A stretch of 64,000 nt of DNA, from assembly GCF_012844345.1 (NCBI RefSeq), contig NZ_CP051625.1:2046001-2110000 (forward strand), given 5' to 3'. A model generated the notes under the pieces. The model was not told where the DNA came from. It saw nothing but the letters and a program-made list of their open reading frames with translations, and made no database searches. Shown in pieces: positions 47,241 through 57,097 of this stretch. This DNA is from Pseudomonas sp. gcc21 (GTDB lineage: Bacteria > Pseudomonadota > Gammaproteobacteria > Pseudomonadales > Pseudomonadaceae). Every line of letters begins with the position of its first letter. Position 1 is the first letter of the stretch. The translations under genes were made by a program, and so were the position numbers.

Positions 47241-48377
47241 ATGTCGGCGCTCCCCGAAAACCCTTTCCTGTCCCACAGTCCCGGTGACCCGCTGCACCTG
47301 GTCATCACCGGCGACTGGACCCTGCCGCACTATTCACAACTACGTCGGTTAATTGAAGGCCGTGGCGGCGCCAAGACAGCCTTGATGCAAGCCGACCTTG
47401 GCGGCCTCGGCGACCTCGATACAGCCGGCGGCCAGTTATTGGCTGAGTTGCTCGGTAGCGAATTACTCGAAACCGCTGCCGAGCAACAGCCGGACATGCC
47501 GGAAGAACGCCGCATCCTGCTACGGCGCATTGCGCGCAGCCTCGCTCCGGAAAGCGCACCTCGGGCAGACGGAAATGCGCTGGGCGATATGCTCGCGCAA
47601 GTGGGCAAGAGCATGCTTCTGTTCTGGGAGCATCTGGTATCTCTGCTCGGCTTTATCGGCCTGACGCTTGCCGGTCTGGCACGCAACCTTTTACGACCTG
47701 GCAACTGGCGAGTTACCGCCGTTGTCGCTCAGATAGAACAAACAGCACTCAACGCCGTACCGATAGTCGCCCTGCTGAGTTTTATGGTGGGCGCAGTGAT
47801 CGCCTTTCTTGGTGCCACCGTACTGGCGGAGTTCGGGGCGAGCATATTCACCGTCGACCTGGTTGCGTTTTCCTTTTTACGTGAGTTCGGCGTCCTGTTG
47901 ACGGCCATTCTTATGGCTGGTCGCACGGCCAGCGCCTTTACCGCCCAAATTGGCTCAATGAAGGCAAACGAGGAAATTGATGCCATTCGCGCTCTGGGCT
48001 TGAACCCGCTCGACCTACTGGTAATACCGCGCGTATTGGCCTTATTGATTGCCATGCCAGCGCTCACTTTTATCGCGATCCTGTCCGGCCTGTTCGGCGG
48101 TGGCATGGTGTGCGCCCTGGCACTGGATATATCGCCCACCATGTTCATCGGCCTCCTGCAGCAGAACGTTGACATGCAACACTTTCTGCTTGGCATGGCC
48201 AAGGCACCGGTGTTTGCCTTCCTCATTGCAATCATCGGCTGCCTTGAAGGGTTCAAGGTCAGCGGTAGCGCGGAGTCAGTCGGCGAACATACGACGTCGG
48301 CGGTGGTGCAATGCATTTTCGTTGTCATTCTGGTAGACGCCATGGCTGCCCTTTTCTATATGGAGATGGGCTGGTGA
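47241..48377 (+). CDS. MCE-system ABC permease, STAS-MlaE fusion
   Basis: Inner-membrane permease of a phospholipid transporter. Residues 1-95 form a STAS domain (LHLVITGDWTLPHYSQLRR...) fused to the MlaE permease domain (about 120-375, about five membrane segments, with MAGRTASAFTAQIGSMKANEEIDAIRALGL region). In the Mla system the STAS protein (MlaB) is separate, so this is the fused type, like PA3211 of P. aeruginosa. First gene of a four-gene operon. Confidence 0.9.
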   Translation: MSALPENPFLSHSPGDPLHLVITGDWTLPHYSQLRRLIEGRGGAKTALMQADLGGLGDLDTAGGQLLAELLGSELLETAAEQQPDMPEERRILLRRIARSLAPESAPRADGNALGDMLAQVGKSMLLFWEHLVSLLGFIGLTLAGLARNLLRPGNWRVTAVVAQIEQTALNAVPIVALLSFMVGAVIAFLGATVLAEFGASIFTVDLVAFSFLREFGVLLTAILMAGRTASAFTAQIGSMKANEEIDAIRALGLNPLDLLVIPRVLALLIAMPALTFIAILSGLFGGGMVCALALDISPTMFIGLLQQNVDMQHFLLGMAKAPVFAFLIAIIGCLEGFKVSGSAESVGEHTTSAVVQCIFVVILVDAMAALFYMEMGW

Positions 48378-49177
48378 GTCAGGAACAGAACACACCGCTG
48401 GTAGAAGTACGCGGCCTGGTTAACCGGTTCGGTAGCCAGGTTATTCATGAGAATCTCGATTTGGATATTCACCGCGGCGAGATCATCGGCGTGATTGGCG
48501 GCTCAGGCACCGGCAAGTCAGTGCTATTACGCTCGATCATCGGGCTCAAGCCGCCAGACGCAGGCAGCGTCAAAGTGTTCGGCCAAGATCTTACCCGGCT
48601 CGATGCAAAGCAACGTTCGCATATGGAGCGGCGTTTCGGCGTGCTATTCCAGCGCGGTGCACTCTTCTCATCCCTGACCGTCAGCGAAAATGTGGCCGTG
48701 CCACTGATTGAACACGCTGGCCTGAGCCGGAACGATGCCGAACATCTGGCATGCATGAAACTCGCTCTGGCTGGCTTGCCGCCGAACGCAGGCAGTAAAT
48801 ATCCGTCAGAATTATCAGGCGGCATGATCAAGCGCGCTGCGCTCGCGCGGGCCCTGGCGCTGGATCCGGACATTCTGTTCCTGGACGAGCCCACTGCAGG
48901 GCTCGACCCGATCGGCGCTGCTGCCTTTGATCAGCTGATCAAGACACTGCGCGATGCGATGGGCCTTAGTGTATTCCTGGTCACCCACGACCTGGACACG
49001 CTGTATGCGATATGCGATCGGGTCGCAGTACTGTCAGAACGGCGCGTGTTGGTAGCTGATTGCCTGGAGCGCGTGGCCGCCACCGACAACCCCTGGATTC
49101 AGGATTACTTTCATGGCCCTCGCGGTCGGTCTGCGGCAAACGCTGCCAGCCTGTCCCGGCAACTGGAGCAAGATTGA
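48374..49177 (+). CDS. MCE-system ABC ATPase (MlaF-like)
   Basis: ATPase that powers the MlaE-like permease. Walker A GGSGTGKS is at about residues 42-49, the signature LSGGM at about 143, Walker B ILFLDEPTAGLD follows and the switch His is in LVTHDLD. The GTG at 48374 overlaps the permease stop (GTGA). 267 residues. Confidence 0.92.
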   Translation: MSQEQNTPLVEVRGLVNRFGSQVIHENLDLDIHRGEIIGVIGGSGTGKSVLLRSIIGLKPPDAGSVKVFGQDLTRLDAKQRSHMERRFGVLFQRGALFSSLTVSENVAVPLIEHAGLSRNDAEHLACMKLALAGLPPNAGSKYPSELSGGMIKRAALARALALDPDILFLDEPTAGLDPIGAAAFDQLIKTLRDAMGLSVFLVTHDLDTLYAICDRVAVLSERRVLVADCLERVAATDNPWIQDYFHGPRGRSAANAASLSRQLEQD

Positions 49178-50115
49178 TGGAAACCCGCGCGCATCATGTA
49201 CTGATCGGCCTCTTCACCCTGCTTGCCGCGGCGGCAGCCATAATCTTCGCTATCTGGCTGAGCAACGCCAGCTCCAGTCGGGCTTACAAGGAATACATCG
49301 TTGTTTTCAACGAAACGGTTACCGGGCTGTCCACCGGCGGCGCGGTGCAATACAGCGGCATCCGCATCGGAGACATCACCCGGTTGCGGCTGGATCCGGA
49401 AGACCCACGCAGAGTGCTTGCCAATATCCGTATCGAACCGGACGTTCCGATCAAGCAGAACACCCAGGCGCGCCTGCAGCTCACCGGCATCACTGGCACC
49501 TCTGTCATTGAACTCAGCCAGGGCACACCGCAGAGCCCGCCATTGCGCGCGCCAAGTGGCGAAACACCCGTGATCGTCGCGTCGCCCTCGCCAATATCGA
49601 CATTGCTGACCAACGGCGAAGACCTGATGACCAATATCAACCAACTCGTCGCCAGCGCCCGCGACATCCTCTCCGAAGAGAACGTCGAGCGCATCGGCAA
49701 TACACTCGCTTCAATTGAGCGCGCCACCGGCGTGATTGCCGGTCAGGGCGAGGACCTTGAGTACCTGCTGGCCGAGCTGACCAAGGTCAGCGCCCAGGCA
49801 ACCCGAACCCTCGAGCAGACCGACCAGCTAATGAGCAATGCCAACACGCTACTCACCGAACAAGGCAGCAGAACCCTCGATGGCGCCGACCAGGCATTGA
49901 ACTCGATAGCACGTACCAGCGCGGTGCTGGAGAACATGCTGACCGAGAATAGCGAGGCGTTTGCGAATGGCATGCGCGGGCTCGGCCAGCTGGAACCGGC
50001 CATCAGCGAGCTACGCGGCAGCTTGTCGTCCCTGCGCAACATTACCCGTCGACTCGAAGACAACCCGACCCGCTTCATTCTGGGGCGCGACTCGCTTGAG
50101 GAGTTCGAACCGTGA
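49177..50115 (+). CDS. MlaD-like MCE substrate-binding protein
   Basis: Membrane-anchored periplasmic lipid carrier. One N-terminal helix (VLIGLFTLLAAAAAIIFAIWL), one MCE domain (about residues 40-120, with GLSTGGAVQYSGIRIGDI) and a long helical tail that probably forms a barrel or tunnel. 312 residues. ATG 49177 overlaps the ATPase stop (TGATG). Confidence 0.9.
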   Translation: METRAHHVLIGLFTLLAAAAAIIFAIWLSNASSSRAYKEYIVVFNETVTGLSTGGAVQYSGIRIGDITRLRLDPEDPRRVLANIRIEPDVPIKQNTQARLQLTGITGTSVIELSQGTPQSPPLRAPSGETPVIVASPSPISTLLTNGEDLMTNINQLVASARDILSEENVERIGNTLASIERATGVIAGQGEDLEYLLAELTKVSAQATRTLEQTDQLMSNANTLLTEQGSRTLDGADQALNSIARTSAVLENMLTENSEAFANGMRGLGQLEPAISELRGSLSSLRNITRRLEDNPTRFILGRDSLEEFEP

Positions 50116-50735
50116 ACATGCTGTCTCGCCTGCTTGGCACCAGTACATTGATCGGCGGCCTGCTGTGGCTCAGCGCCTGCACCGTGCTACCTGAATCCGA
50201 ACCCATGACGGTATATCAGTTTCCGGCACCGCCAATGCAGACTGCAGGCTCTGGTGAAGCGATACCCGTGTCACTGCGGATCAACACGCCGCTGACCGGC
50301 TTCACTCTGGCCGGCCCGCGTATCCTGGTCAACCCTGACGGGCATGAGCTGAAAACCTACAAAGGCGCGCGCTGGTCCGATCCCTCCCCAGCCCTGCTGC
50401 GTGAATACATCGCCCAGTCATTCAATCAACACGGCGGTATCGCCACGGTGAGTACCGATGAGCACGGACTGCATGCCGATGTTCACCTGAGCAGCAATCT
50501 GCGCCGCTTTCAGGTCGTATACGCTGACGGCGCGGAAGTCGTTATCGAGCTCGACGCGCGCCTGGTGGAGGCTGGCACGCTGCGGGTGCTCTCGGACCGG
50601 ACATTCGTTACCCGGCATCCGCTGAAGGACGAACAGCTGCCCGGCGTGGTCGCCGCCTACGGTCAAGCCAGCGAGAAGCTTATCGCAGCATTACTGCCGT
50701 GGACCTTGTGCGTCCTGCAGACGCAGGACAGGTAG
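50112..50735 (+). CDS. ABC-type transport auxiliary lipoprotein (PqiC-like)
   Basis: Lipoprotein with lipobox LSAC (Cys23) and the ABC_trans_aux fold, the outer-membrane end of PqiABC-like MCE systems. PLTGFTLAGPRILVNPDG and ARWSDPSPALLREYI are family blocks. The GTG at 50112 overlaps the MCE gene by four bases; ATG 50118 is an alternative. 207 residues. Last gene of the operon and convergent with the acyltransferase after 18 bases. Confidence 0.85.
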   Translation: MNMLSRLLGTSTLIGGLLWLSACTVLPESEPMTVYQFPAPPMQTAGSGEAIPVSLRINTPLTGFTLAGPRILVNPDGHELKTYKGARWSDPSPALLREYIAQSFNQHGGIATVSTDEHGLHADVHLSSNLRRFQVVYADGAEVVIELDARLVEAGTLRVLSDRTFVTRHPLKDEQLPGVVAAYGQASEKLIAALLPWTLCVLQTQDR

Positions 50736-50753: not shown

Positions 50754-52649
50754 TCACAGGTCGTTGATATACGCAACCATCGGCCCCATGAGCCCCAAAG
50801 AGTGAACGGCCCCGTCAAAGGTAAAATGACCGTAATCAAACGCGATCGGGACATTTTCTGCCGTCACGCTCTGGCATTGTTTGCCCTCAGAACAGAGCGT
50901 GTCGATCACGCTCAAGTATTCCGCCCGGTCTTTATTCACAGCTTTTTTCAACTCGCCGTCCACCGAGAATCGGTCGTCGTTTCTGAAATGTTCCAGCATC
51001 TCGGGCTCAGCCCCATAGAGAGATGCCTGCACCAACAATGTTGGCAGGTCTTTACTATATTCAACAGTGGGTCCGATTATGAAGATTTTATCGGCGAATT
51101 GATTCAAGTAAGGCAAGGTGAATTCCAGCCTTTCTGAATCAGATAGCTGCCAACGGCCCGACAGAATAATCACATCCAGCTTTTCTCCTTCAGGAAGAAA
51201 CGTATTGAAAACATAGTCATTCAGATCAACGCAGCGCTTTTCCCCCGTCAATGGCAGCAGGGGAAGGCAACCGGATGACGTCGCCTGTAAAACATTCGTA
51301 TTGGGATAAAGATGCAGCAATGCGCTGTTGAGATGTGCAGCATGAGAGTCGCCAAATAGAAGAATATCGGCTTTCTTATCTGATATATCCAAACATTCGT
51401 CGGCATTAAAGAAGGCAAAATTATCCTCCTTCGTAGTCAGGAAACATTTCCCGACTCTTGCCCCGCCAAGCCAGTCGTCGGATTCGTTGTATTCCAGATA
51501 ACTGATGTATTCGACATCGTCGCCCACCATCTTATTATCAAAAAAGGCCCGGTTATCGATACCAAACCCTAACAACACGAAAGAAGCCAGGCCGATACCA
51601 CTGACGGGGAAGACAAAACGCTTCTCGGACAACTTACCACTGCGAAAAGGCGCCTCCACAAACCGCCAGCTAAGATAGGAGATGACCAGTACCACAAGGC
51701 ACAGAACCACCATTGTCATGTATGTGTAGTTGTCGAGCAGAGTATATTTTGCTAATGCGAGCACCGGTTGGTGCCATAAATAGGCGCTATAGCTTATCAA
51801 CCCAATCCCCACCATAAGCCGACTGGCGAGCAGCTTATAGACCAGGGATCCTTCTACCGTAAACACAATCAGCAAGCACACCCCAACGATAGGGACAAGC
51901 GCATAAAGCGAAGGAAAGGGTGTGGAACTGTCGTACGCAAAGAAAGAAAACATTATGAGCCCGAAGCCCGACAGGCTCATGATTTCGGCGGTATTTCTTG
52001 AGAAGGCAGGCTTTTTGTCTCTCAGGTAGAAAGCAACCAGCGAGCCCATCAATAACTCCCAGGCTCGGGTTGGCAGCAGATAGTAGGTCGCCGTGGGTTT
52101 GTTATAGGCGCCCCAGTGCGCGACGGCAAGACTGATAACAGCAATTAACACGATGGAAGCTATAACGAACTTTTTACCCCAGCGCCAGGAGGCCATAAGA
52201 AACAAGGGGAAGAAAATATAAAACTGCTCCTCAACTGCCAGACTCCAGGTGTGAAGAAGCGGCTTCAATTCAGCAGATGTGTCGAAGTATCCACTCTCCA
52301 TCCAGAACAGTATGTTCGAGGAAAAGATCGAGACAGCCCCCACGCTTTGCGCAAAATCGTCAAAATCCCTGGGCATCAATAACATGTAGCTGAAAGGAAC
52401 AGATACAGCGACCACTAGAAACAGGACAGGCAATATCCTTCTGGCTCGCCTCAGGTAAAAATCAGCCAGACTGAACCTTGCATTCGCCAGTTCGCTGATC
52501 AAGATTGAGGTGATTAGATAACCGCTGATGACGAAAAAGATATCTACACCGATAAAACCGCCACTGATGACGGAAAATCCGGCGTGAAAAAGGATGACTG
52601 GGATGACAGCTAGCGCTCTTAAACCGTCGATTTCAGCTCGGTATTGCAT
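50754..52649 (-). CDS. OafA-type membrane acyltransferase with SGNH domain
   Basis: Residues 1-350 are an acyltransferase-3 domain with about ten membrane segments; YRAEIDGLRALAVIPVILFHAG at the start is the family signature. The C-terminal part is a periplasmic SGNH hydrolase-like domain with GDSHAAH (catalytic Ser, about residue 433) and FDYGHFTFDG (Asp/His, about 605). Such proteins O-acetylate O-antigen, peptidoglycan or exopolysaccharide; the acceptor here is unknown. The ATG at 52649 is chosen (MQYRAEIDG). The gene looks AT-richer than its neighbours by eye, suggesting transfer. 631 residues. Confidence 0.9.
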   Translation of the reverse strand: MQYRAEIDGLRALAVIPVILFHAGFSVISGGFIGVDIFFVISGYLITSILISELANARFSLADFYLRRARRILPVLFLVVAVSVPFSYMLLMPRDFDDFAQSVGAVSIFSSNILFWMESGYFDTSAELKPLLHTWSLAVEEQFYIFFPLFLMASWRWGKKFVIASIVLIAVISLAVAHWGAYNKPTATYYLLPTRAWELLMGSLVAFYLRDKKPAFSRNTAEIMSLSGFGLIMFSFFAYDSSTPFPSLYALVPIVGVCLLIVFTVEGSLVYKLLASRLMVGIGLISYSAYLWHQPVLALAKYTLLDNYTYMTMVVLCLVVLVISYLSWRFVEAPFRSGKLSEKRFVFPVSGIGLASFVLLGFGIDNRAFFDNKMVGDDVEYISYLEYNESDDWLGGARVGKCFLTTKEDNFAFFNADECLDISDKKADILLFGDSHAAHLNSALLHLYPNTNVLQATSSGCLPLLPLTGEKRCVDLNDYVFNTFLPEGEKLDVIILSGRWQLSDSERLEFTLPYLNQFADKIFIIGPTVEYSKDLPTLLVQASLYGAEPEMLEHFRNDDRFSVDGELKKAVNKDRAEYLSVIDTLCSEGKQCQSVTAENVPIAFDYGHFTFDGAVHSLGLMGPMVAYINDL

Positions 52650-52839
52650 AGATACATCCCTGTAGCGGAGGGCCAATCAGAAGCTCAGGCCCACCCCCTA
52701 CAAAAATGGTTCAGACTTACCTTGCGAAATGCGACGTAGTCAGCAAATTAATATCAAAAGAAAGCGGGGCGCGAGCATCGACCGCGTCACAGCCTGCCAA
52801 CCTCAAAAAAACGACTCACTGCCACTCGATTACGAATAG
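52650..52839. other. AT-rich spacer upstream of the acyltransferase gene
   Basis: No gene is seen. It contains the degenerate copy of the guaA end at 52816-52830. A promoter for the acyltransferase should be here. Confidence 0.5.
52816..52830. repeat. Third copy of the guaA 3'-end repeat (candidate att site)
   Basis: TCACTGCCACTCGAT, one mismatch from the 15 bases covering the guaA stop. Same orientation as the copies at 54275 and 55520. Confidence 0.6.
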
Positions 52840-53151
52840 TCAATCTCCATGGCGTGCTGTCGCATGGACCTCGATGGGGGCCGTAACGCCGGGACGGATC
52901 AGCATCCAGGCCAACGCCGTCTGGGCGGGACGGGCATTGCCCTGTATATCTTCCCGGCCACGATACTTTCCAGTTAGAAAGCCGCTGGCAAACGAGAAGA
53001 AACTGACCACACCGATTTCCCGCTCTTGCGACACGTCAAGCGCCTGACGTAAACGCGAGGCGAACATGTCGGCAAAAGACATTTGTTGGGTGATCGCCAG
53101 CCGCGCGGCCTCGGCGTCGCTAATGCTGTGCAACCCACTGATCAGTTCCGC
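52840..53151 (-). pseudogene. Aldo/keto reductase remnant with internal deletion
   Basis: The frame after the ddh stop encodes recognisable aldo/keto reductase pieces: EIGVVSFFSFASGFLTGKYRG, joined almost directly to ARPAQTALAWMLIRPGVTAPIE. About 50-60 residues that normally separate these blocks are missing, as is the whole N-terminal barrel. No start codon or ribosome site is apparent. It ends next to the repeat at 52816-52830. A broken gene. Confidence 0.75.
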
Positions 53152-54114
53152 CTAGACGTCGCGCGCGATTAGCTCGTCCAGCGGGGTAGGTGATATCAGG
53201 TAAGGAGCGACTTCCAGCACTGTAAAGGCACCGCTCTGACCGGCAGCTTTCAAACGGTGTGCCGCACGGCCGTAGGCCACCTGGACAGCGGCGGTGAAGT
53301 CCGGATTGCGGTCCAGCTTCAGGATGTACTCGATAGTGTGACTAAAACCGCCGGTGTCGCCGGTGGTGACCACATGGCCGCCATGCGGCATGCCGGTGTG
53401 CTCACGGTCGAAGGTCTCTTCATCAATGAAGTGGACCTCGGTCTGGTAGCCGACGAAGTAGTCCGGCATGGTGCGGATGTCGTTCTCGATGCGCTGCTGA
53501 TCGGCCTCATCCGCGACTATCCAGCACTGGCGCACATGCGCCTGCTTACCACTCAAATCTCCCGCCTCGCCCTTGCGGGCCAGCTCCAGCGCCGCTCCGG
53601 AGGGCAGCGTATACTGCACACCCTTTTTCACACCCGCGACACGGCGCACCGCATCGGAATGCCCCTGCGACAAACCCGGCCCCCAAAAGCTGTGCTGCTG
53701 AGCGTTCGGCAGGATGGCCTCGGCCAAAGTCCGATTCAGGGAGAACATGCCCGGGTCCCAACCGGTGGACACCAGCGCAACATTGCCGGCCTTCCTGGCT
53801 GCTTCATCCATCACCTGACGGTGGCGCGGAACGTCGCGGTGGTTATCATAGGTATCCACGGTGTTGGCGAACTTCGCGTACTGCGGCGCGAGCTCGGGGA
53901 TATCCGTGGCGCTGCCCAAACAGAGGAAGAGCACGTCCACCCGATCGGCGTAATTAGCGATCTCGTCGATCGGAAAAACCGGGGTCTCGGTGTCCAACTC
54001 GGTGCGGCGGGAGAAGATGCCCACCAGCTCCATATCCGGCTGCAGCCCGATAATTTTTTCCACGGACTTGCCCAGGTTGCCGTAGCCGACGATAGCGGCG
54101 CGGATAGTGCTCAT
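53152..54114 (-). CDS. ddh: Meso-diaminopimelate D-dehydrogenase
   Basis: NADPH-dependent enzyme that makes meso-diaminopimelate in one step from tetrahydrodipicolinate, a bypass of the succinylase route. RAAIVGYGNLGKSVEKII is the dinucleotide-binding loop; VSTGWDPGMFSLNR and FWGPGLSQGHSDAVRRV are conserved substrate-side blocks. 320 residues. AGGAG lies eight bases before the ATG. The gene is patchy in Pseudomonas and here lies between two copies of the guaA-end repeat, which suggests it was acquired. Its product feeds MurE. Confidence 0.92.
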   Translation of the reverse strand: MSTIRAAIVGYGNLGKSVEKIIGLQPDMELVGIFSRRTELDTETPVFPIDEIANYADRVDVLFLCLGSATDIPELAPQYAKFANTVDTYDNHRDVPRHRQVMDEAARKAGNVALVSTGWDPGMFSLNRTLAEAILPNAQQHSFWGPGLSQGHSDAVRRVAGVKKGVQYTLPSGAALELARKGEAGDLSGKQAHVRQCWIVADEADQQRIENDIRTMPDYFVGYQTEVHFIDEETFDREHTGMPHGGHVVTTGDTGGFSHTIEYILKLDRNPDFTAAVQVAYGRAAHRLKAAGQSGAFTVLEVAPYLISPTPLDELIARDV

Positions 54115-54195
54115 ATGATTGGCTCCTACAAAGTTTTTCCGATGATGTTTCCGTGTATGAGGTTACCAGCGCGGGCCTCCGACAGACGAAAAATG

Positions 54196-54222
54196 AAAAA
54201 CCCGCAAATGTGCGGGCTTTTC
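54196..54222. terminator. Bidirectional terminator upstream of ddh
   Basis: CCCGCA (54201-54206) and TGCGGG (54211-54216) form a six-pair stem with a four-base loop; As precede and CTTTT follows it, so both strands have a T run. It would stop leftward transcription before ddh. Confidence 0.75.
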
Positions 54223-54274
54223 GCTACGCTATGAATTGTCTATGAACTCGGCTCTGGGCATGCCAAGCGGTAAG

Positions 54275-54289
54275 TCACTCCCACTCGAT
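54275..54289. repeat. Second copy of the guaA 3'-end repeat (candidate att site)
   Basis: TCACTCCCACTCGAT, identical over 15 bases to the guaA end at 55520-55534 and in the same orientation, 1245 bases away. The flanks differ on both sides. This is what an attachment-site duplication would look like. Confidence 0.7.
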
Positions 54290-54668
54290 TATCAGCAGAT
54301 AAAATTTTACCTTAAAAATCAGTGTATTAAAAATAAACACCCAAGCAATACCATAACAATACCATCCCAAATATTTACTCTTAAAAGCGCTAGAAACAGC
54401 GATAAGCCGAGCAGCCACTTTGACGCGACGCCTGGAGCGGGTAACGATCTACCACATCAAATCGGCAATTCAAGCATCGAAAAAAGCGAACTATATTGCA
54501 CAAAATTAAATTGTGAACAATGGTTATCAGCAGCCCATAGGAGGATCACAGGCTAACTGCTAATTTTGAATAGCAATAATGAAAGCTTATCGTATCTCGC
54601 ACGGTGAAACTATTGATGGACTGCGGTTGGAGAGCCTTGTCGACCGCCCTCTTGCCCCATACGAAGTA

Positions 54669-54695
54669 AAGCCCGCAGTCATGAACTACGGGCTT
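54669..54695 (-). terminator. Hairpin after the PurC-like gene
   Basis: AAGCCCG (54669-54675) and CGGGCTT (54689-54695) form a seven-pair stem with a 13-base loop, 36 bases past the PurC-like stop on the minus strand. ACGAAG and CTTCGT flank it as a possible extension. The following T run is poor. Confidence 0.55.
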
Positions 54696-54730
54696 CGTGG
54701 AGTTGATGCTGTTAGCTGTGCCCCAGCACC

Positions 54731-55444
54731 CTAGCAAATCAGCTGTTCGTACAGCGTCCCGTGTTCCAGCACTTTGCCTTCGCCGTCCATGACCCGCATC
54801 GCATCTGCCGAGACCTCGTCGATGACCACGACCTCGCCATCGACGAAGCCGATTTCGATCTTCATGTCGATCAGACTGAGTCCCTTGTCGGTCAGGTCTG
54901 ACTCGACAATACGGCACACCTGACGGGTGAGATCCTTGGCCTGATCGAGATGCTGTTGGCTAAGGAGGCCGAGGGCAACGATGGTGTCGTCGTTGATGAG
55001 CGGATCACCGCGTTCGTCGTCCTTGATGGTGATCTCGACGAGGTAGTCGAGCGTACTCGTAGTTTCACCGATGTAATTTTGGTAACGGCGCTGGAAGCTG
55101 CCCCAAGGCCGGGTGCGGCAGATGAATTCGAGGCCGCCCTTGCCGCTGATATCCTTGCCCAGGGGCTCGGCGCGACGGACTTCCATGCTGGCCTGCTCGA
55201 GGTCGAGACGCACCAGATGGGTAGGGATGCCAGCGGCATGGAGACACTTGAAGAAATGCTCGGTCATGGCGAGAGACTTTCGGCCCTTGCCTTCAACCTG
55301 ACCGATGACGGTGTTGGCACCCGGTTCGATGACGCCATCCTCACTACCGGTGACGTCGTCCTTGAAGACGAGAAGGATGTTGTCATTCGCCAGGGCGTAC
55401 AGGTCTTTTGTCTTGCCGGAATAGATCTTTTCGCTGCTGTTCAT
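54731..55444 (-). CDS. Divergent SAICAR synthetase-like protein (PurC family)
   Basis: A 237-residue protein of PurC size and order: IYSGKTKDLYALANDNILLVFKD at the start (ATP loop), then FICRTRPWGSFQRRY where classic PurC has VVRNYAAGSLVKR, and GLSLIDMKIEIGFVDGEVVVIDEVSADAMRV matching the PurC block with the metal-binding Glu and Asp. PurC joins CAIR and aspartate in purine synthesis. The altered central motif suggests a distant paralogue, so the substrate may differ. The ATG at 55444 follows a weak GCGAG site. It lies 75 bases beyond guaA, between two copies of the guaA-end repeat. Confidence 0.75.
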   Translation of the reverse strand: MNSSEKIYSGKTKDLYALANDNILLVFKDDVTGSEDGVIEPGANTVIGQVEGKGRKSLAMTEHFFKCLHAAGIPTHLVRLDLEQASMEVRRAEPLGKDISGKGGLEFICRTRPWGSFQRRYQNYIGETTSTLDYLVEITIKDDERGDPLINDDTIVALGLLSQQHLDQAKDLTRQVCRIVESDLTDKGLSLIDMKIEIGFVDGEVVVIDEVSADAMRVMDGEGKVLEHGTLYEQLIC

Positions 55445-55519
55445 CGGTTTACTCGCTGGTAGTTCCACTATCCCCTTCGGGGGCAAAGACGGGGTACCGG
55501 AGCGCCCCGCTGCTGCAAC

Positions 55520-55534
55520 TCACTCCCACTCGAT
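55520..55534. repeat. guaA 3' end serving as repeat source (candidate attB/attL)
   Basis: TCACTCCCACTCGAT covers the guaA stop codon and its last four sense codons. It recurs at 54275 (perfect) and 52816 (one mismatch). The 3' end of guaA is a known insertion site for genomic islands in other bacteria. Confidence 0.65.
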
Positions 55535-57097
55535 AGTGGCCGGCGGCTTGCTGGAAATATCGTAGGTCACCCGCGATATACCGCTGATTTCGTTGATGAT
55601 GCGGTTGGATACCAGTTCAAGGAACTCGTAGGGCAGATGCGCCCAGCGCGCCGTCATGAAATCGATGGTTTCCACCGCGCGCAGCGCGATTACCCATTCG
55701 TAACGACGACCATCCCCGACCACGCCGACCGAGCGCACTGGCAGAAAGACCGCGAACGCCTGGCTGGTCTTATGGTAGAGGTCAGCCCGGCGCAGTTCTT
55801 CGATGAAGATGTGATCGGCGCGCCGCAGAATCTCCGCGTATTCTTTACGCACTTCCGCAAGAATCCGTACACCCAGGCCCGGGCCGGGGAACGGATGACG
55901 GTAGACCATATCGTAGGGCAGCCCGAGCTCGAGGCCGATCTTGCGCACTTCATCCTTGAACAGCTCACGTAGCGGCTCAACCAGATCGAACGCCATGTCA
56001 TCCGGGAGACCGCCCACGTTGTGGTGGGATTTGATTACGTGAGCCTTGCCGGTCTTGGCTCCCGCCGACTCGATCACGTCCGGGTAGATAGTGCCCTGGG
56101 CCAGGAAGCGGATGCCTTCCAGCTTGGTCGCTTCCTGATCGAATACTTCGATGAAGCTGCGGCCAATGATCTTGCGCTTCTCTTCCGGGTCGGTAACGCC
56201 CAGTAGCCTGGACAGGAACATATCCTCGGCGTCTACGCGAATTACTTTCACGCCCATGTTCTCGGCGAACATGGCCATGACCTGATCGCCCTCATGCAGG
56301 CGCAACAGACCGTTATCGACGAATACGCAGGTGAGCTGATCACCGATAGCCTGATGCAACAAGGCAGCAACGACAGAGGAATCCACGCCGCCGGAAAGGC
56401 CCAGCAGCACCTTGGCGTCACCGACCTGCTCGCGCACTGTCGCAATGGCGTCCTCGACAATATTGGAGGGCGTCCAGAGCGCTTCACAGCCGCACAGCTC
56501 CAGCAGGAAGCGCGACATCAGGCGCAAGCCCTGCTTGGTATGGGTTACTTCAGGATGAAACTGCACCCCGTAGAAGTGGCGGCTCTCATCGCCCATAGCC
56601 GCGATCGGACAACTGGGCGTGCTGGCGATGATATGAAAGCCCTCAGGCAGGTCCATGACCTTGTCGCCATGACTCATCCACACGTCCAGTCCGAACATGC
56701 CATCAGCGTCAACGTGATCTTCTATGCCGTCCAGCAGCGCGCTCTTGCCAACGATATCAACGCGCGCATAGCCGAATTCCTGCTTGTCTGAACCCTTGAC
56801 GCTACCACCGAGCTGCGCTGCCATGGTCTGCATGCCATAGCAGATGCCCAGCACTGGCACGCCCAGTTCATACACCACTTCCGGCGCACGCGGTGAACCC
56901 TCGTTCGGCACGGACTCCGGTCCGCCAGCCAGGATGATGCCTTTGGGGGCGTAAGCACGAATATCCGCTTCGTCCATATCCCATGCGCGAATTTCGCAGT
57001 AGACACCGATCTCGCGTACGCGACGGGCGATCAATTGAGTGTACTGGGAGCCGAAATCGAGGATCAGGATCCGGTGCGCGTGAATATCGTGAATCAT
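55520..57097 (-). CDS. guaA: GuaA, GMP synthase (glutamine-hydrolysing)
   Basis: Converts XMP to GMP with glutamine as nitrogen donor. The N-terminal glutamine amidotransferase has Cys86 in LGICYGMQ and the FHPEVTHT triad His. The ATP pyrophosphatase loop SGGVDSSV follows at about residue 235, and the C-terminal dimer domain ends PPATIEWE. 525 residues. GAAGGAAAG lies upstream of the ATG. It forms the guaBA unit with guaB. Its last 15 bases are repeated downstream. Confidence 0.97.

Follow-up and report, generated by a model that had tools for sequence, protein, structure and literature searches.

Candidate tandem of integrase-less cargo units behind guaA in Pseudomonas sp. gcc21

Genes and repeats behind guaA

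The window analysed here is a stretch of 64,000 nucleotides from Pseudomonas sp. gcc21 (contig NZ_CP051625.1, positions 2,046,001 to 2,110,000), and our subject is the DNA that follows the 3' end of guaA (GMP synthase) in it: two short intervals, one with a purC-like gene and the other with ddh, bounded by copies of a 15-base segment taken from the guaA stop codon. A preliminary description, made from the letters of the window alone, had reported this repeat, and a pattern search agrees with it, as the 15-mer TCACTCCCACTCGAT is found exactly at 55520-55534 and 54275-54289 and with one mismatch at 52816-52830, on one strand throughout. When the whole genome (3,983,233 bases) was searched at no more than one mismatch, these three places behind guaA were the only ones returned, so that the 15-mer is not frequent elsewhere, and the reversed pattern gave no match at the same level. 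The 15-mer includes GAGTGGGA, which is the published core of islands inserted at the guaA 3' end, e.g., GIsul2, and the core-to-core intervals measure 1.245 kb (purC-like) and 1.459 kb (ddh). The features are as follows, in descending order of coordinates:

55520 to 57097, minus strand: guaA, 525 amino acids, its 3' end being the attachment site (open reading frame and Pfam)
55520 to 55534, minus strand: core copy 1 at the guaA stop codon, attL-like; the guaA strand reads ATC GAGTGGGA GTGA (pattern search)
55445 to 55519, minus strand: 75-bp leader from the core to the purC-like gene (locus comparison)
54731 to 55444, minus strand: purC-like gene of the SAICAR synthetase family (Pfam SAICAR_synt, 1e-37)
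54579 to 54668, plus strand: first 30 codons of a zinc-type quinone oxidoreductase gene, left as a 5' stub (tblastn, 90% to L028:1128-1217; blastn blocks)
54290 to 54578, no strand: AT-rich stretch (38% GC) that closes the purC unit and has its homolog at the far end of the unit in genome G003 (blastn)
54275 to 54289, minus strand: core copy 2, GAGTGGGA intact, attLR-like (pattern search)
53152 to 54114, minus strand: ddh, meso-diaminopimelate dehydrogenase, 320 amino acids, full length (Pfam DAPDH_C, 4.7e-67)
52840 to 53133, minus strand: decayed aldo/keto reductase remnant (Pfam, 2.9e-4, below cut-off)
52816 to 52830, minus strand: core copy 3, a single change within the core (GAGTGGCA), attR-like (pattern search)
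50754 to 52676, minus strand: acyltransferase-3/SGNH gene with a GC content of 48.5%, lying between core 3 and the Mla/MCE operon (Pfam, locus comparison)
47241 to 50735, plus strand: Mla/MCE operon, i.e., genes for MlaE permease, ABC ATPase, MlaD and auxiliary lipoprotein (Pfam families of the window)

As a control, all 15-mers of guaA were compared with positions 52000-55519, where 3 out of 1563 recur at up to one mismatch; the stop-codon 15-mer is the sole one that recurs twice, and one of the other two is that site again, moved by one base. At up to three mismatches the window holds 5 matches against 1.66 expected, a number reached by 3 of 100 shuffles, and the strength of the repeat therefore lies in its near-exact copies. 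Copy 3 is probably impaired by its mutation, judging from the core sequence. Readings without integration, in which the 15-mer would be a short repeat of a regulatory or other kind or would have arisen by slippage that duplicated the guaA end, are very improbable: the 15-mer does precede two metabolic genes in the same orientation, but its three genome copies are all at the guaA locus, it holds the published attachment core, and homology and gene content change at it in several species.

The gene content first described (purC-like, ddh and a broken aldo/keto reductase) agrees with Pfam and NCBIfam. Among the open reading frames of at least 80 amino acids in 52816-55534, Pfam matches these three (the reductase in remnant form) and none of the six overlapping ones. 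The purC-like gene scores 114.5 bits with NCBIfam purC, under the cut-off of 189.9, and the genome also has a housekeeping purC (G000:C1:162708-163382). The ddh product matches the NCBIfam model DAP-DH TIGR01921 over 1-324, above its cut-off, and the reductase remnant is without its N-terminal part, its C-terminus and an internal piece when compared by eye with full-length homologs (L079, L080). The scanned open reading frames of both intervals contain no GIsul2 integrase, mobilisation genes, ars operon, CR2 or sul2. The hairpin terminator that had been ascribed to each unit did not hold up as a structural mark: a terminator scan of 52600-55600 gave 3 sites against 3.2 expected, the site in the ddh interval (54195-54222) is upstream of ddh, and the hairpin 3' of purC (about 54667-54700), seen by eye only, is absent from the scan's list. 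Terminators were thus rejected as evidence of unit structure, there being no excess over shuffles.

Empty and occupied guaA sites in the genus

For comparison, 37 genomes (species) of the window's genus were used, a genus that is probably the one now named Halopseudomonas; the genomes are numbered G, with G000 for the window genome, and loci are numbered L. The guaA loci cover 36 of the 37, several ending at contig breaks, and G021 has only a locus without guaA. The guaA tree contains 33 genomes (G021, G024, G027 and G029, with guaA missing or short, were omitted). A literature search found no paper treating Halopseudomonas together with guaA.

The guaA site is empty in 8 of the 36 genomes (G009, G013, G014, G016, G017, G032, G034 and G035), where the Mla/MCE operon begins 54-114 bp after guaA. 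In the guaA tree, G000 groups with G017, G035 and G032, all three with empty sites, so that an order of guaA, purC-like and ddh common to all close relatives, which would have spoken against insertion, is not what is seen; the six other purC carriers in the tree fall in a different clade. Compared to G017, the window genome is about 4.7 kb longer here, by the purC unit, the ddh unit and the acyltransferase gene. Empty sites in the nearest species had been expected to join the sequence left of 52816 directly to guaA, and this part of the expectation failed because the acyltransferase gene is absent there too; the flank to the left of core 3 does not align significantly with the empty sites (as-good shuffles, out of 1000: G017 80, G035 446, G032 708). 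None of the other guaA loci of the genus that were read has this acyltransferase gene, and no core is seen at its far end; it was probably acquired as well.

At the same core, different cargo or integrase islands occur in other species, as had been anticipated, e.g., a 14.4-kb island in G003 and abiEi/abiEii in G029. GIsul2-type integrase genes are present at guaA in 6 of the 37 genomes, adjoining guaA in G007, G033 (95%), G004 (93%) and G025 (59%), with truncated copies in G003 and G005. An integrase linked to the same core was thus found in relatives but not in G000, whose whole genome has no GIsul2-type integrase at E <= 1e-30, although it has 18 matches to the tyrosine-recombinase family. 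The G007 integrase is 95% identical to plasmid-borne ones, including that of A. baumannii ATCC 17978, whose plasmid is a named GIsul2 carrier (PMC9376610). In G033, the published CR2 end sequence follows the second core, and sul2 is on another contig beside purC.

Some further loci deserve mention. In L012 (G033:C35, 15160-17062) sul2 lies about 0.3 kb past the core that precedes the purC-like gene, and L012 and L013 (integrase island, CR2 end) look like one GIsul2 island split over two contigs. L046 (G021:C35) has a core and then the CR2 end sequence, in a stretch read without guaA. G025 (L006, L007) has two guaA ends and, with 75% completeness and 5% contamination, is perhaps a mixed assembly.

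Relatives and origin of the two units

The purC interval aligns by blastn with G003 in two blocks, at 91.0% over 867 bp and 82.1% over 397 bp, and the limits of the alignment are 54275 and 55534, i.e., the outer bases of both 15-mers, while the guaA genes of the two genomes are 81.0% identical. Identity to G003 is 90% and 81% inside the cores and 60% outside on the guaA side (random 59 +/- 7). The interval is therefore common from core to core with a more distant congener, which argues for an attachment-site-bounded unit moved between lineages, and the earlier proposal of bounded cargo without an integrase, set in series at the guaA 3' end, is supported. What does not stand is a one-gene insertion for the purC unit, since the G003 unit measures 2.7 kb, with the purC-like gene, marR and quinone oxidoreductase, and the window copy is short of 1.46 kb of it, namely the MarR-family gene and the quinone oxidoreductase gene except 30 codons. 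The G003 form is therefore the fuller one, and derivation of the window unit from it by deletion would be the simpler direction. G003 itself has three cores; its 14.4-kb island separates guaA from the purC unit and opens with a GIsul2-type integrase gene truncated to 229 amino acids.

The order of core, leader and purC is common to the window, G003, G033, G004 and, in diverged form, G029. In G033 and G004 an element-type arm and a core lie upstream of the purC leader; in G029 a 2.0-kb abiEi/abiEii stretch without an integrase is followed by a degenerate core and then by the purC leader. The abiEi/abiEii pair is a type IV toxin-antitoxin (L010, G029:C174, 124-2200) and is possibly another cargo-only unit.

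Several observations weigh against a simple mobile unit. The outside flank at core 2 is 77% identical to G003 over 44 gapped columns, where the random mean is 59 and the maximum 82 of 300 (blastn makes no extension there). The G029 core has two mismatches, a level at which 2 opposite-strand chance matches occur among the 37 loci, and it is its place before the purC leader that suggests a core. In G015 and G022 (L040, L051) purC begins 4 bases past the guaA stop and forms a tight pair with guaA, without a leader, and in G005 a core upstream of purC was looked for and none was seen, so purC is partly resident-like in that clade. In the purC tree (8 rows), G000, G003, G022 and G033 form a well-supported group, within which G000 pairs with G022 (94/98) and not with G003; purC kinship is taken from this tree and from blastn against G003, ungapped pairwise identities being left unused for G000 and G015. 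Finally, over its last 60 bp ahead of the core, guaA is 83% identical to G017, no closer than to many other species, and in the preceding 60 bp G004, from the other clade, ties with G017 at 95%. These identities leave room for homologous exchange over a short tract at the guaA end.

Such exchange, by natural transformation or transduction, could also have brought the guaA end and purC together from the other clade, with core limits that are coincidental or inherited from the donor. The guaA end that is not clearly of G017 type and the tight attachment of purC to guaA in G015 and G022 fit with this. It seems improbable nonetheless, as guaA shows no clear tract of donor type, the closest matches to its last 60 bp (90%; G035, G034, G018 and G009) include none of the purC clade, and the far side of the common block also stops at a core. 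The simplest account is that purC has long stood behind guaA in one clade, where it is partly resident, and that a core-bounded form of it entered the window's lineage.

Searches for the purC-like gene gave 8 of 398 family genomes at 1e-80, all within the window's genus, and at 1e-70 a single one of 369 class genomes, which is the window's own. Its named protein relatives are scattered (e.g., Pusillimonas, Pollutimonas and Advenella, among the best 120 of 1117). No purC-like gene was found on plasmids at 1e-40, and among viral contigs searched with the purC-like protein 2 stretches fit a pattern, neither being a relative. A second, housekeeping purC is present in all 8 genus carriers, due to which replacement of the housekeeping purC by the purC-like gene was rejected.

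The ddh unit is less certain as an insertion than the purC unit. It is the repeat that speaks for it as a separate insertion, because its far core is mutated (GAGTGGCA), which counts against the reading of two bounded units, and because a DNA search of 398 family genomes with the ddh interval found no core-bounded relative; the matches in 77 of them are ddh genes (about 64-67% over their longer stretches), short reductase pieces and short near-chance hits. Next to the mutated core, the reductase remnant is cut at both ends and has an internal loss. The full-length ddh is unlike the ddh genes of the genus, which are about 64-66% identical to it in DNA over longer stretches, and in G003, G007 and G022 ddh is at least 0.5 Mb away from guaA. 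Protein relatives at 93-86% are mostly unnamed (best 120 of 7904; 7997 candidates scored), with Corynebacterium sp. A21 at 88%; the ddh of a Methylophaga metagenome-assembled genome (MAG) is also at 88%, followed by Corynebacterium and other actinobacteria at 64-76%; the plasmid search for ddh gave a single Actinomyces match at 45% identity.

The Methylophaga MAG bears on a further possibility, that the purC-like gene and ddh arrived together behind guaA as a single composite and core 2 is a later internal event. In its contig L092 (1-1345) the 88%-identical ddh is preceded, at a distance of about 300 bp, by the tail of a purC-like gene, the two making an unusual pair in a genus this distant. 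The guaA of the MAG is followed, at the end of a contig that may join L092, by a GIsul2-type left end, with 40 bp identical to that of G033. Furthermore, a second ddh cluster and a purC-like cluster both list a longest contig of 5861 bases, which they may share. Against this, a core and the AT-rich unit end stand between purC-like and ddh in the window, the G003 purC unit stops at that core without ddh, and a full-length purC-like gene was found in 0 of 24 genomes of the MAG's genus at 1e-60, in a search without a positive control that also left the MAG purC tail unlisted. We consider joint arrival unlikely, although less so than homologous exchange.

Proposed mechanism and comparison with known systems

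Taken together, and as far as sequence comparison reaches, we favour (with a probability of about 0.77) two eroded units resembling cis-mobilizable elements (CIMEs), in tandem at a GIsul2-type site, with the integrase lost or supplied in trans. The guaA 3' end is the attachment site of GIsul2-type tyrosine-recombinase islands, the order in the window reads guaA, core, purC-like unit, core, ddh unit and mutated core, and each unit was most likely placed by recombination between GAGTGGGA cores. Here we infer the activity of an integrase as the agent, the order of events, and a like history for the ddh unit. Two routes may lead to this arrangement, as a unit could have belonged to a larger island that later lost its integrase module by deletion, or it could have moved as a cargo-only circle by an integrase from elsewhere, as PMC9376610 reports from experiment for CR2-sul2. 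The tandem would be old and eroded; by its core sequence the purC unit could still be mobile, and the ddh unit is less likely to be so. More tentatively, and doubtful for now, GIsul2-family integrases may run an integron-like trade at guaA, in which small cargo-only units with ordinary metabolic or defence genes (purC-like, ddh, abiE), each ending in the guaA core, are captured serially and pass from genus to genus (here the Pseudomonas-type genus of the window and Methylophaga), the resistance-carrying CR2-sul2 being one case of a wider system.

On the favoured reading, the window offers a very small example of cargo-only units without resistance genes at a GIsul2-type site, and a single genus provides empty sites, a donor-like clade and an arrangement of three cores to set beside it. 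Two questions become testable in this way: how such units originate (island deletion versus capture in trans), and whether ordinary metabolic genes are moved by the same integrase family as sul2 units.

The units can be compared with three known systems. GIsul2 and ICERspD18B, a guaA island whose core is GAGTGGGA as in GIsul2 according to PMC7775301, have the same guaA 3'-end target and core as found in the window, and relatives in the genus have a GIsul2-type integrase there, whereas no integrase, replication or transfer gene was found in the window units. CIMEs, as outlined in PMC5704250, have lost integration and transfer genes and kept attL and attR, and after such decay they accrete in tandem at the end of one target gene. 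The window intervals likewise have no integration or transfer genes among their open reading frames, and both cores of the purC unit are intact, while the far core of the ddh unit has one change. As for derivation by deletion from an integrative and conjugative element (ICE) or integrative and mobilizable element (IME), the 1.46-kb loss relative to G003 is seen and no integrase-bearing parent of the purC unit is; the window units also differ in being very small and in the mutated far attachment site of the second one.

A third likeness is to CR2-sul2, an integrase-less, core-bounded unit that the GIsul2 integrase excises and integrates in recA-deficient E. coli (PMC9376610). It too has no integrase and has guaA-type cores at both ends (attLR, attR), and it sits behind an integrase island; the window cargo differs in being metabolic (purC-like; ddh with the aldo/keto reductase remnant), of 1.2-1.5 kb, and without rcr2, sul2 or a resistance gene. 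A direct precedent for stacking is cited in the same paper, i.e., two integrase-less units stacked at attR of a guaA island in Aeromonas caviae. The window units thus look like a known kind of stranded, integrase-less cargo in an unusually small, non-resistance form.

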